Assembly: GCA_000299115.1 (NCBI GenBank) | Contig: CP003801.1 | Coordinates: forward strand, 868,001-932,000 | Reading direction: 5' to 3' | Length of the DNA: 64,000 nucleotides | DNA from: an alpha proteobacterium HIMB59 | GTDB taxonomy: Bacteria; Pseudomonadota; Alphaproteobacteria; HIMB59 | Shown here: piece after piece, positions 24,372 to 37,211 of the stretch | Position numbering within the stretch: position 1 is the stretch's first letter | Layout: every line of letters starts with the position of its first letter | Translations under genes and position numbers: made by a program | Notes under the pieces: generated by a model | What the model was told of the DNA's origin: nothing | What the model saw: only the letters and a program-made list of their open reading frames with translations | The model's database searches: none

Positions 24372-25441
24372 GCGATTATCTTTACAATTTCAGAGAAATT
24401 CATTTTTTCTTTAATCTCTTTAACTATATCTCTTTTCGAGCTGGACTGTCTCTAATTTCATCATTTATTTTAATTTTAATATTTATGCCTTATTGGATTA
24501 AAGTTCAAAAAAGATTATTTCCATTAGGTCAACCAATTAGATCTGATGGGCCTTCGAGCCATTTATCAAAAAAAGGTACCCCAACTTTAGGCGGACTATT
24601 AATTATCGCATGTTTGTCATTTAGTACCATTCTATGGACATCCAATTTTTCTAAATTTAACTACTTGCTCTTATTAACAATTTTTTTATTCGGATTGATT
24701 GGTTTCTACGATGATTTTAAAAAAATTAAAACAAGAGTAGGAATTAATTCAAAAACTAAATTTTTGCTTCAAATATTTTCTACAATAATTATCTATTTTA
24801 CAATTAAGTTTTTTAATTTTGATATCAGTAATTTTTATATTCCTTTTTTAAAAGATACTTTTTTTGATATTGGTTTTTTATATTTTTTTATAGCACTCTT
24901 TATCATATTAGGCTCAACTAATGCTACAAACCTTACTGATGGATTAGATGGTCTTGTATCTATGCCATTAATATTTGTTTTTTTAACATTTGCTGTTTTT
25001 GCATACATCATTGGTAATATAAATTTTTCAGATTATTTATTATTGAATTATATAAGCGGTTCTGGTGAGATTGTAATTTTTTGTACTGCTGCGATTGGAG
25101 CTCTATTAGGATTTTTATGGTTTAATTCAAGTCCTGCTGAAGTTTTTATGGGCGATACAGGATCACAATCTTTAGGAGCCACATTAGCAGTTACATCAAT
25201 TTTATTAAAACAAGAATTTGTTTTAGCAGTAGCTGGCGGGTTGTTTGTTATAGAAGCTTTTTCAGTGATGATACAAGTTTTTTACTTCAAGACCACAAAG
25301 GGAAAAAGATTTTTCTTGATGGCACCACTCCATCATCACTTTGAAAAAGCAGGTCTTTCAGAGCAAAAGGTTGTAATTAGATTTTGGATTATTAGTTTTC
25401 TATTTTGTATATTAGCTCTTTCATTATTAAAAATTAGATAG
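24365..25441 (+). CDS. mraY: Phospho-MurNAc-pentapeptide translocase
   Basis: Integral membrane enzyme that makes lipid I from UDP-MurNAc-pentapeptide and undecaprenyl phosphate. 358 residues, about ten membrane spans. Conserved blocks: GPSSHLSKKGTPTLGGLLI, FGLIGFYDDFKK with the catalytic acidic residues, NATNLTDGLDGL, FMGDTGSQSLGA and FLMAPLHHHFEK. The stop abuts the murD TTG with no gap. Confidence 0.97.
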   Translation: MLSDYLYNFREIHFFFNLFNYISFRAGLSLISSFILILIFMPYWIKVQKRLFPLGQPIRSDGPSSHLSKKGTPTLGGLLIIACLSFSTILWTSNFSKFNYLLLLTIFLFGLIGFYDDFKKIKTRVGINSKTKFLLQIFSTIIIYFTIKFFNFDISNFYIPFLKDTFFDIGFLYFFIALFIILGSTNATNLTDGLDGLVSMPLIFVFLTFAVFAYIIGNINFSDYLLLNYISGSGEIVIFCTAAIGALLGFLWFNSSPAEVFMGDTGSQSLGATLAVTSILLKQEFVLAVAGGLFVIEAFSVMIQVFYFKTTKGKRFFLMAPLHHHFEKAGLSEQKVVIRFWIISFLFCILALSLLKIR

Positions 25442-33964: not shown

Positions 33965-34421
33965 TTTTACTTTTAATATATTCTTCCCAGCGTCCTAAAA
34001 GATCGGAACTAGACGACTCTTTATGATTGCCTCCTATACCAAATTTCAGTTCAATATTAAATTCTTGGGCAGTATCATACTCCAAAATTTTTGAAGTATC
34101 AGATCGATCTCCTCCATTAGCAAAAATAATTTTATTAGAGGGAAATTTTTTTCTTACAGCAATAAGCAATTTAGAAGCACTTCCTTTTGAGTCATCTTCA
34201 AATTCAATAGCTTCATTTACTGCAGCGAGACTGTTAATAACATAAAGTCTATGTTTGATATCCATGAAAAAGTTACCCTTTTTATTTATTAGCCATTGAT
34301 TTGAGTTAACTCCAACAATTAAATAATCTGAAAAATCAAGACAATCGTTCATCATCATTATATGTCCAGGATGAACCGGATCAAAACCACCCGAAACAAT
34401 ACTTATAATTTTATTTTCCAT
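33954..34421 (-). CDS. Cytidylyltransferase-like nucleotidyltransferase
   Basis: 155 residues of the HxGH nucleotidyltransferase fold. SGGFDPVHPGHIMMMN carries the HxGH ATP/CTP site, and FANGGDRSD with the later SSSDLLGRW corresponds to the second signature (usually an ISSTxIR-type motif) seen in glycerol-3-phosphate cytidylyltransferase, phosphopantetheine adenylyltransferase and the heptose adenylyltransferase domain of HldE. Which alcohol phosphate is used cannot be told. It overlaps the end of pyrE by 11 bases and so is co-transcribed with it. Confidence 0.8.
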   Translation of the reverse strand: MENKIISIVSGGFDPVHPGHIMMMNDCLDFSDYLIVGVNSNQWLINKKGNFFMDIKHRLYVINSLAAVNEAIEFEDDSKGSASKLLIAVRKKFPSNKIIFANGGDRSDTSKILEYDTAQEFNIELKFGIGGNHKESSSSDLLGRWEEYIKSKTKD

Positions 34422-35052
34422 TCTCGATAGATGAAATGTATTGCTCTAATTTAAGTTGATCTTTTTTAGAGATATAGTTAGGTGAAACTTCAAGTATATC
34501 ATGCCAACTAGCTAAATAATTGAGATTAACTTTCATTTTAATTAAGTTTTTTTTTGCAACAGGATATATGTTATAGAAAAAAACCACATAAATATCTTTC
34601 ACTAATAGGGTATTTTTTCTTAAAGAGTTAATAAAGTGAAGTTTGCTCCCTCCGTCAGTAGCCATATCTTCAATTAGAATAGATGTAGATTTTTTTTTAT
34701 ACTCTCCTTCAATTAATTTTCCTTTTCCAAATCCTTTTGGCTGTTTTCTAATATAAATCATAGGCATCTTTAATTTATGGCTGATAAAAGAAGAGTAAGG
34801 TATTCCTGCTGTCTCACCACCAGCAACTATAACTTTTTTTTTATATTTAGATTTAATGAGCTTAGTCATTTCATTAATCACAATTTCTCTTTCTTTTGGA
34901 AAAGAAATTAACTTTCTACAATCAACGTAAACAGGGCTCTTTTTACCTGAGGTTAAAGTAAACTTGTTTTTAAAATTGATATTTACGCAGCCTATTTTTA
35001 ATAGGATATCAGCTATTTTTTGTTTTGAATTTTTGATTTTGATCTTCGACAT
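34411..35052 (-). CDS. pyrE: Orotate phosphoribosyltransferase
   Basis: Makes orotidine 5'-phosphate from orotate and PRPP in pyrimidine synthesis. About 213 residues from the ATG at 35052; a TTG at 35064 would add four. [50 protein letters not shown] and the PRPP loop [13 protein letters not shown] are conserved. Its start lies inside the DUF2256 microgene by about 40 bases, in another frame. It shares a pathway with carAB at the left of the window but not an operon. Confidence 0.93.
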
Positions 35053-35156
35053 TTTTCTGAACAATATTTAACATCATTCCATACTTTTTCCCATTTTTTT
35101 CTCCATGTAAAAGGAAGATTGCAAACGATACAAATTTTAAATTCTTTGTTTTTCAG
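35013..35156 (-). CDS. DUF2256 zinc-ribbon-like microprotein, apparent CTG start
   Basis: A 47-codon frame, stop at 35013–35015, that encodes the DUF2256 signature: [19 protein letters not shown] followed by [14 protein letters not shown]. All four Cys residues (CxxC and CxxxC) are present, so it looks selected. Family function is unknown; a metal-binding role is inferred. There is no ATG, GTG or TTG. The frame is the same as the uspA gene before it, separated by that gene's TAA, and the next codon is CTG at 35156–35154, which gives a family-like start ([12 protein letters not shown]). It could use CTG, or TAA readthrough. It overlaps pyrE. Confidence 0.72.
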
Positions 35157-35636
35157 TTAAATAATTTTCTCTATTTCTTTATCTTCAAGATTACCATTTA
35201 TAATTACTAGAGGGCAATGTAATGAATTTCCCTTTTCATATATCAATTTATCAATTAATGGTCCTGGTTTTCCAATATCTTTGCTAGTGGCTAAGACAAT
35301 AGTAGAATTCGAGGAATAACTATTTAAAAAATTAATAAAATCATCTATTTCACTTATTTTAAAAATTTCTGTTTTTGCTTTTATTTTAGAATGTTCAAAA
35401 ATGAAATCATGAACTTCTTTATGTTTAATTTTTTCACTACTTATTTGTTCTTTATCAAGTATTTTCTCTGTAGATGAAGTTAACATCATGCCATCACTAA
35501 TACTTTCAATAAAACTAATTGTTGTAAGGTTTGATTTAGTTGACTTAGCTCTTTTTGTTGCAAATTTTACAGCAGTCCACATTTCTTCACTATCATCGAT
35601 TACAACAAAATAGTTTCTTTGATTTATTTTTTTCAT
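35157..35636 (-). CDS. Universal stress protein (UspA) family
   Basis: 159 residues, one Usp alpha/beta domain. The start NYFVVIDDSEEMWTAVKFATKRAKS and the end SIVLAT-like segment (NSTIVLATSKDIGKPGPLIDKL) followed by LHCPLVII match the family, though the ATP-binding G-x2-G-x9-G(S/T) loop is degenerate, so nucleotide binding is doubtful. It overlaps the Alph_Pro_TM gene by four bases upstream and is followed at once by the DUF2256 frame. Confidence 0.82.
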   Translation of the reverse strand: MKKINQRNYFVVIDDSEEMWTAVKFATKRAKSTKSNLTTISFIESISDGMMLTSSTEKILDKEQISSEKIKHKEVHDFIFEHSKIKAKTEIFKISEIDDFINFLNSYSSNSTIVLATSKDIGKPGPLIDKLIYEKGNSLHCPLVIINGNLEDKEIEKII

Positions 35637-36316
35637 CTTCTTCTAAAAAGCCAATTTGATAATAAGCTAAATACAATTGAAAAGACAACTAAGATTATCG
35701 TATAAAGCATCGATTGTTCCTCTAGCATTATTTCAAATCTACTTGTAAGTCCCTTTTTTTGAATATTTAATTTTTTTTGGTTCAAGCCAATAACTTCATT
35801 ATTTTGAATTTCATATAAAGAAACTTTAATATCACCGGCTGAAATATTATCAGGTATTTTAAACTTTTTTATAAAAAGACTTCCTTCAATGCTTTGGAGT
35901 TCATCTTCAAAGTAAAGACCCTTAATCTTTAGAGCTGTTCTTATTTGATAGAGTCTCTCCGAGATATCACTAATTAGTACATGTTTGCTGGTAACCGAGG
36001 GTATTAAAAAAATTTCATTAAGTGAATATTTTGGGGTAGAGAAAATTCCAAAAAAACTAGGAATTCTATCCAATTCTTGTTTTTCATTGATCCATAAAAG
36101 ACCTTTTTTAGTTTTTGTGAACAATTTTCCTGGTTTTTCAATACCTTCAAATATAATGATCAGATCTCTTCCTTCGTCTTTATGCCCAAATAAAACAATC
36201 TCTTCGCCTAAGAAGTTTGAATTTATTTCTATATCAAACTTATCTAATGAAAATTTTGAAGACCAAGAGCTAGATGAGCAAAAAAATAATATTATTATTA
36301 GTATTATTCTATGCAT
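35633..36316 (-). CDS. Alph_Pro_TM family (TIGR02186) membrane protein
   Basis: 227 residues: signal peptide (1–19), a periplasmic beta-rich domain with INSNFLGEEIVLFGH and a GRDLIIIFEG segment, then a C-terminal membrane helix (TIILVVFSIVFSLLSNWLF) ending in Arg-rich RRR. This layout is that of the alphaproteobacterial family TIGR02186, commonly next to a TauE/SafE permease, as here. Its function is unknown; a role as a periplasmic partner of the permease is inference from that linkage. It overlaps the permease by eight bases. Confidence 0.82.
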   Translation of the reverse strand: MHRIILIIILFFCSSSSWSSKFSLDKFDIEINSNFLGEEIVLFGHKDEGRDLIIIFEGIEKPGKLFTKTKKGLLWINEKQELDRIPSFFGIFSTPKYSLNEIFLIPSVTSKHVLISDISERLYQIRTALKIKGLYFEDELQSIEGSLFIKKFKIPDNISAGDIKVSLYEIQNNEVIGLNQKKLNIQKKGLTSRFEIMLEEQSMLYTIILVVFSIVFSLLSNWLFRRR

Positions 36317-37211
36317 ATTCTATCCGATATAAATTCATTGGAGTTCTAAAAAGCTCATATAAAAGAAAAGATGCTATGATTATTAAGAGCACGCCAAATA
36401 AGACTTTCAAATTTTCTTGATCAAGCCTTTCAACAATTCTAGAAGCTATTGCAGCTCCAAATGAACTGCTAATGATAAGTATTACTGCTAATACAAAATC
36501 TACATTCTGATTTATCGTAATTTGAAGAAAAAGAGAAATTAAGGAAATAATTGTAATATTAAAAAGGGAAGTACCTATAACTGATATTGTGGTCATTCCC
36601 AAAAGATAAATCATACATGGAATTAGAATAAATCCCCCTCCGATACCTGTAAAACCTGTCAAAAGACCTATACCGAAACCTATAATCAGCGGTGCAAGAA
36701 TACTGATATATAATTTTGATTTTCTATATTTAAACTTAAAGGGCAGGCCATGTATCCAAGAGTGTTGATGTAATTTGAATTTTTTATTTTTATAAAAAAT
36801 ATTTACTTTAGCTGTTTCGTATAAAATAAAACTTGCTGTTCCTAATAAAAGCACAACATAAATAAAGCTAAGATAATTATCTATTGCTCCAATATTTTGA
36901 AGATTATTTAAAAGCAAAACCCCTGTTAATGTGCCAAAAATCCCCCCAATGATCATGGTAATGCCCATTTGATAATCAATATTTTTTTTCTGATAATGGT
37001 TTATTACACCTGTTGAAGTAGAAGCAAACACCTGAACTGTAGTCGATCCAACAGCTACAGCAGGAGGTATTCCGACAAGAATGAGTAAAGGTGAAGAAAT
37101 AAATCCTCCTCCGATGCCAAAAAGCCCTGATATAAATCCGATCCCCACACCTAGTGATAACAATACATAAATGTTGATAGATATTTCAGCGATAGGTAGA
37201 TAGAAATTCAT
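36309..37211 (-). CDS. TauE/SafE family anion permease
   Basis: 300 residues with about eight membrane spans in two related halves. Each half carries the family signature: GLFGIGGGFISSPLLILVGI near the start and GFTGIGGGFILIPCMIYLLG in the middle. Members export sulfite, sulfoacetate or other organosulfonate-derived anions; the substrate here is unknown. It is first in a minus-strand chain with Alph_Pro_TM, UspA, DUF2256, pyrE and a nucleotidyltransferase. It diverges from the RibD-like gene across 46 bases. Confidence 0.9.
   Translation of the reverse strand: MNFYLPIAEISINIYVLLSLGVGIGFISGLFGIGGGFISSPLLILVGIPPAVAVGSTTVQVFASTSTGVINHYQKKNIDYQMGITMIIGGIFGTLTGVLLLNNLQNIGAIDNYLSFIYVVLLLGTASFILYETAKVNIFYKNKKFKLHQHSWIHGLPFKFKYRKSKLYISILAPLIIGFGIGLLTGFTGIGGGFILIPCMIYLLGMTTISVIGTSLFNITIISLISLFLQITINQNVDFVLAVILIISSSFGAAIASRIVERLDQENLKVLFGVLLIIIASFLLYELFRTPMNLYRIEYA

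Follow-up and report, generated by a model that had tools for sequence, protein, structure and literature searches.

Initiation outside AUG, GUG and UUG occurs in bacteria: infC starts at AUU, and the few known genes with a natural CUG start are overlooked by gene finders that accept only ATG, GTG and TTG. A CTG start is reported as supported for the EHEC gene ano, in an account that also cites plasmid repA and Deinococcus deserti rpsL and states that one mutation would turn the ano start into a common one (PMC5960689). A further CTG start has been proposed for pop (PMC7103648). Conserved AUU or AUA starts are described for cvfC1 (AUU), ccpN (AUA) and infC (AUU/AUA), output in poor medium being about 10% of that from AUG, and the same source describes in staphylococci a 61-residue potential zinc-finger protein with a conserved non-canonical start; an AUU start of pcnB appears in its reference list (PMC13009471).

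Re-initiation beside a stop codon without a Shine–Dalgarno sequence has been documented in E. coli, where it is reduced by an excess of IF3 and where, once ribosome recycling factor is lost, translation also starts at non-canonical codons 3' of stops (PMC2268962). CUG initiation complexes are reported to be less stable than those on AUG, GUG and UUG, and neither initiator tRNA tested started efficiently on CUG (PMC11497404). In mycobacterial reporters, CTG was ineffective or not enriched and ATT was enriched (PMC4633059). The inefficient CUG initiation and the mycobacterial result count against a CUG start of the kind described below. The CUG of Caulobacter dnaA is reported not to be used in vivo (PMC8443254), and a recent small-ORF predictor took CTG starts as its negative set (PMC12752654).

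The genome of alpha proteobacterium HIMB59 consists of one contig of 1,410,127 bases. Bases 868001-932000 were analyzed, and this whole stretch of 64,000 nucleotides is referred to as the window. The minus strand carries, in order, genes for a TauE/SafE permease, Alph_Pro_TM, a UspA-like protein (usp), DUF2256, pyrE and a cytidylyltransferase-like protein (Table 1); the last is called 'coaD' below, a name presumed by us and used only as a label. A first-pass annotation made from the letters had placed a 47-codon DUF2256 frame at 35013-35159 (TAA included) on the minus strand, with four family cysteines and the family core, without a standard start, in frame with a uspA gene and parted from it only by TAA followed by CTG, and running about 40 bases into pyrE. 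Coordinates, frame and identity were confirmed, and only the label of the upstream gene proved weak: an ORF lies there, and its PF00582 match has an E value of 0.0092 and a score below the cut-off. The DUF2256 translation matches Pfam PF10013 at profile positions 7-40 of 40 (E 2.7e-18, cut-off 25 bits) and carries C9, C12, C32 and C36 (C-x2-C ... C-x3-C) together with the ten-residue core. No ATG, GTG or TTG lies in the frame ahead of the first cysteine, and the list of standard-start ORFs (≥30 aa) contains no ORF for it. The first 40 nt of pyrE overlap the DUF2256 3' end; the pyrE match to its NCBIfam model is strong (E 7.5e-63), yet its 212 bits fall below the cut-off of 245. The overlapping Alph_Pro_TM and TauE/SafE permease genes probably share a transcript, and the UspA-like gene is presumed to be the upstream partner of DUF2256 in one transcript.

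Table 1. Features of the DUF2256 locus, in window coordinates.
Feature	Position	Strand	Remarks
TauE/SafE permease gene	36309-37211	-	PF01925 over cut-off; overlaps Alph_Pro_TM
Alph_Pro_TM gene	35633-36316	-	PF09608 over cut-off
UspA-like gene, 159 aa	35157..35636	-	ORF; PF00582 17 bits, below cut-off
usp TAA stop	35157..35159	-	0 nt from CTG; TAA in 18/39, TAG in 21/39 genomes; 4 switches on the 37-genome tree
DUF2256 gene	35013..35156	-	47 codons, CTG to TAG; PF10013 66.3 bits
CTG start codon of DUF2256 (proposed)	35154..35156	-	directly 3' of usp stop; CTG in 39/39 same-frame genomes
DUF2256 codons 16-34, constrained synonymous sites	35055..35111	-	just upstream of pyrE ATG
DUF2256 stop TAG	35013-35015	-	
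pyrE (orotate phosphoribosyltransferase)	34411..35052	-	ATG 35052-35050; NCBIfam PRK00455

The start region was compared in 52 genomes of the genus, a HIMB59 clade of marine Alphaproteobacteria; a family-level genome search returned the same set. Many of these relatives are titled MAG, and most of the named ones are isolates with AG- numbers, which we take to be single-cell genomes. The DUF2256 frame scored over the PF10013 cut-off in 42 of the 52. The other ten contain no pyrE orthologue either (four have only PRTase matches, at 29-33% identity); these draft assemblies probably lack the locus. In 39 of the 42 genomes, DUF2256 follows the usp stop in the same frame with a gap of 0 nt, its first codon is CTG, and no in-frame AUG, GUG or UUG is available. 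Residues 2-5 after the CTG vary among the 39. None of the 39 has an ATG at that place or lacks the stop, and the four cysteines are intact in all 42 translations. The outcomes that the first-pass annotation had named as fatal to its reading, cysteines lost in relatives or a correction creating an ATG or removing the TAA, were thus not seen, and sequencing error or decay as the source of the missing start was excluded.

We consider it probable, from these comparisons of sequence, that DUF2256 has a genuine CUG start, read as fMet and used by ribosomes that have just finished usp and re-start without a recognisable Shine–Dalgarno core. Ribosomes terminating at the usp TAA or TAG would re-start at the abutting CUG by termination–reinitiation, CUG would be decoded as fMet, and a small, fixed fraction of usp translation would yield a 47-residue zinc-finger-type protein, whose start selection would keep weak. 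The distance between stop and start is 0 nt in all 39 genomes, the position expected for termination–reinitiation, and neither GGAG, GAGG nor AGGA occurs within 21 nt upstream of the CTG in any of them. A purine run is present at -15 to -10 (GAGAAG in 27 genomes, GAGAAA in 5 and other forms in 7); the GAGAAG form might be a weak ribosome-binding site. No RNA fold beyond that of shuffled sequences was detected at the usp/DUF2256 junction (z 0.58). Re-initiation by the usp ribosome fits the abutting codons and the lack of both a Shine–Dalgarno core and an RNA structure, and it is the most likely of the routes proposed at the outset; initiation at the CTG, which had been expected to give a normal family N-terminus, is likewise supported by its invariance and by the sister clade, in which a TTG lies three codons further from the first cysteine. 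The usp stop is TAG in 19 of 37 genomes, compared with 6 of 50 among the larger genes of the window, and the base after it is always C; the frequent TAG and the invariant C could favour leaky termination.

A second zero-gap junction lies in the same genome, where a TAG stop is followed directly by a TTG start at window position 25441/25442 on the plus strand; the pair is presumably mraY-murD. The initiator tRNA (L362; G000:C1:1392054-1392127, minus strand), recognised by its C1-A72 mismatch, carries A29-U41 in the anticodon stem in place of the canonical G29-C41. A search for the canonical initiator anticodon-stem pattern with one mismatch allowed found nothing, because of this A29-U41 pair. 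The three G-C pairs of the initiator anticodon stem are reported to be highly conserved (PMC7949028).

Starts were then read in DUF2256 genes beyond the genus. PF10013 matched 84 of the 289 genomes sampled from the class, and 74 loci were parsed, with ATG in 66, GTG in 5 and TTG in 2 within range and none in L232. The latter was rejected as a start-less candidate: an ATG in a different frame precedes a run of A, and an indel is likely. The phylum sample contained 129 matching genomes, from which 68 further loci were read (28 loci and 40 stretches) and 63 parsed, giving ATG in 54, GTG in 6, TTG in 2 and none in one (L273). The five loci outside the parsed counts (L286, L291, L305, L309 and L314) have standard starts by eye, and two candidates among them were rejected as start-less, L291 with an ATG at -21 and L305 with a GTG; L147 (two pieces with a stop), L234 and L235 were also left out of the counts. 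Of the 222 loci parsed outside the genus, 218 have ATG, GTG or TTG in range, and L232, with its probable indel, is among the remaining four. In family f40, two of 12 loci (L246 and L247) read ATT at the codon that is TTG in their sister L245; GAGG or AGGGAG lies 6 nt upstream of the ATT. The g17 locus L273 reads ATT with GGAGG 7 nt upstream; its 29 sisters that were read have ATG (16) or GTG (1) at that codon or an ATG two codons later (12). These are two other alphaproteobacterial lineages in which an AUU start of DUF2256 arose separately; together with the CUG of the HIMB59 genus, the family has gained a non-standard start at least three times. In a survey of genome triplets, two switches to CUG and one to AUU were counted from 61,358 ancestral AUG starts, and one to CUG from 2,468 UUG starts (PMC5622118). 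The comparison suggests that DUF2256 is enriched in AUU and CUG starts, the published switch counts being drawn from annotated starts only.

To measure how firmly the CTG is kept, neighbouring genes were aligned for up to 37 genomes, the window plus 36 named loci, and a tree was built. The CTG changed 0 times on the 37-genome tree, compared with a mean of 4.39 changes at 178 fourfold third positions in conserved columns, so that it is conserved beyond neutral expectation. On the same tree, the usp stop and the 'coaD' start each changed 4 times, the latter among ATG, GTG and TTG. The tauE, alph, usp, pyrE and pdxH starts are ATG throughout, and pyrE has ATG in 36 of 36 aligned genomes. The 'coaD' start itself (window 34421, minus strand) is ATG in 14, GTG in 19 and TTG in 3 of 37 genomes across the genus, one being misaligned. 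A reading of the codon as leucine would be odd, since conserved leucine columns nearly all change (2 of 85 never do) and CTG is rare for leucine, with 105 of 3,067 leucine codons, 37 of which are the DUF2256 first codon itself. Any of the three first-base changes to CTG would produce a standard, stronger start (ATG, GTG or TTG), and none was seen; from this we infer that a weak start is kept by selection.

A single invariant codon is one observation, with a frequency of 1 in 178 if judged by the fourfold columns, and the CTG may be held because it is weak or its C may be held for another reason such as stop-codon context. The first base after a stop can influence termination and hence reloading. 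A start at CUG whose invariance reflects termination context, or chance in a compact genome, in place of selection for weakness is accordingly the strongest rival, and we regard it as somewhat unlikely. Columns that never change do occur, as the one fourfold column and the two leucine columns show, but the 10 C-majority fourfold columns changed 4-10 times each, and AUU starts, present in two further lineages, suggest that weak starts are characteristic of the DUF2256 family. The invariance of the CTG, taken with its position, suggests that DUF2256 may be made at a deliberately low, usp-coupled rate that cells need. A broader idea, which we put forward tentatively and hold to be possible though doubtful, is that the dose of DUF2256 is set by start-codon fidelity, lineages repeatedly adopting starts that IF3 disfavours and selection blocking the one-base upgrade. 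If so, DUF2256 synthesis would act as a sensor of IF3 or initiation stringency, or of re-initiation, and the CUG would be a natural start codon that selection maintains throughout a genus, beyond mere use.

Readthrough of the usp stop to give a UspA-DUF2256 fusion as the functional product, the other route offered in the first-pass annotation, is disfavoured and appears very improbable. It would agree with the shared frame and with the C that comes after the TAA or TAG in all 39 genomes, 21 of which have TAG. The stop is TAA in the other 18, however, and a fusion leucine codon would be expected to vary, as 83 of 85 conserved leucine columns do. In three genomes of the genus (L002, L003 and L041), moreover, the two genes are in different frames, with a TTG start of DUF2256 that overlaps the usp stop, so that 3 of 42 depart from a frame shared by all relatives; this clade splits from the 39 with a support of 1.0. 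In the sister family, DUF2256 starts with TTG at 69 and ATG at 4 of 73 loci read, and at the ten loci whose neighbours were read the upstream gene is different and in another frame. From the frames of the TTG clade and the sister-family starts and neighbours, independent initiation of DUF2256, and not a fusion, is most likely ancestral. The linker from the usp stop to the first cysteine is 25 nt in the TTG clade and 24 nt in the CTG clade; the two layouts thus differ by a net change of one base, and the old TTG position is out of frame in the CTG clade. A likely history is that this change shifted the TTG from the DUF2256 frame, after which initiation passed to the codon next to the stop.

That the frame is a decaying or untranslated relic is still less credible. 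The missing standard start would agree with it, the 40-nt pyrE overlap could alone preserve the 3' part, and synonymous sites are constrained in codons 16-34, so that constraint at the nucleotide level contributes there. These codons show 9 synonymous changes vs 35.5 expected, and none of 20,000 resamplings gave so low a count. When 1,154 windows of 19 codons are ranked, this one is in the bottom three, each of which lies in DUF2256. Codons 35-47 show 7 changes vs 23.3 expected, which is attributed to the pyrE overlap; the overlap does not explain codons 16-34. Codons 2-15, by contrast, behave normally (15 changes vs 15.5 expected), and the cysteines at codons 9 and 12 are invariant although the synonymous sites of codons 6-15 are normal (15 vs 15.5 expected). 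In 17 aligned members, the four cysteines and 31 of 47 positions do not vary, which argues against decay. The plainest guess for codons 16-34 is a promoter or translation-initiation region of pyrE, and no RNA hairpin beyond shuffles was found before pyrE (z 0.54). Synonymous constraint was also seen in codons 1-19 of the pdxH-labelled gene (window 33374 onward, plus strand; 8 changes vs 25.0 expected), whose 5' end overlaps the start of a divergent gene, presumably fabI.

Initiation at an AUU or AUC at codon 8, or a frameshift from another frame, is the least credible of all: 37 of 39 genomes have ATT or ATC at codon 8 and AUU starts occur in the DUF2256 family, but the other two have ACT or ACC there, only the initiator residue would precede the first cysteine, and the fixed CTG would then have no reason.

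DUF2256 is placed in the TRASH clan of metal-binding domains together with ribosomal protein L24e (PMC4047054), and it is listed among frequent domains of very small proteins (PMC11796252); these were the only mentions of DUF2256 by name found in the open-licence literature. The AlphaFold2 model had a mean pLDDT of 64, too weak for fold comparison, and a PDB sequence search with DUF2256 gave no convincing solved relative (best E 0.52). A tblastn search with one photolyase, over stretches that differ in length, detected a photolyase-like protein near DUF2256 in 28/79 loci of the class, 16/74 of the sister family, 4/12 of f40 and 12/68 of the phylum, and in 0/42 of the HIMB59 genus. Within the order, PF10013 was found in 116 of 162 genomes and PF04244 in 111 of 162, both in the same three of seven genera. 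A partnership with PF04244 photolyases, for instance in metal or cofactor handling, is the best lead, held with low confidence. The PF04244 photolyase gene of HIMB59 (L379; G000:C1:818569-819212, outside the window) is split over two frames with stops, and in G006 and G038 it is likewise in two pieces; the split gene may be a pseudogene or a sequence error.

An ORF search restricted to standard starts overlooks DUF2256 genes that begin with CTG or ATT. The CUG start described here appears real and conserved; natural CTG starts are already known, and it is the conservation across a genus that is unusual. A search of the open-licence literature found no report of a CUG start conserved throughout a bacterial genus, which is weak evidence of absence. 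With the DUF2256 start of 39 species and a neutral yardstick on the same tree, the deliberate keeping of weak starts can be asked about directly.

Among the described systems, repA, ano, D. deserti rpsL and, putatively, pop are like DUF2256 in that CTG starts a natural bacterial gene. In the accounts available they are single genes of single strains or plasmids, with no genus-wide conservation described, whereas the DUF2256 CTG is fixed in 39 species. Similarly, the CTG and ATT switches of the published survey (PMC5622118) are isolated events in genome triplets. The starts of infC, pcnB, cvfC1 and ccpN lie outside AUG, GUG and UUG, are described as conserved among relatives and lower expression; that of DUF2256 is likewise non-standard and conserved, and the cvfC1 product is also small and potentially has a zinc finger (PMC13009471). 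Unlike cvfC1, ccpN and infC, DUF2256 would use CUG and not AUU or AUA, has no strong Shine–Dalgarno sequence and hence does not belong to the Shine–Dalgarno-driven subtype, and its start abuts the upstream stop. In this last respect it resembles the M13 gene V-gene VII reporter, in which a start directly beside the upstream stop is used without a Shine–Dalgarno sequence (PMC2268962), and it differs from that reporter in the CUG start and in a coupling to upstream translation that, for DUF2256, is deduced from the layout of the locus.
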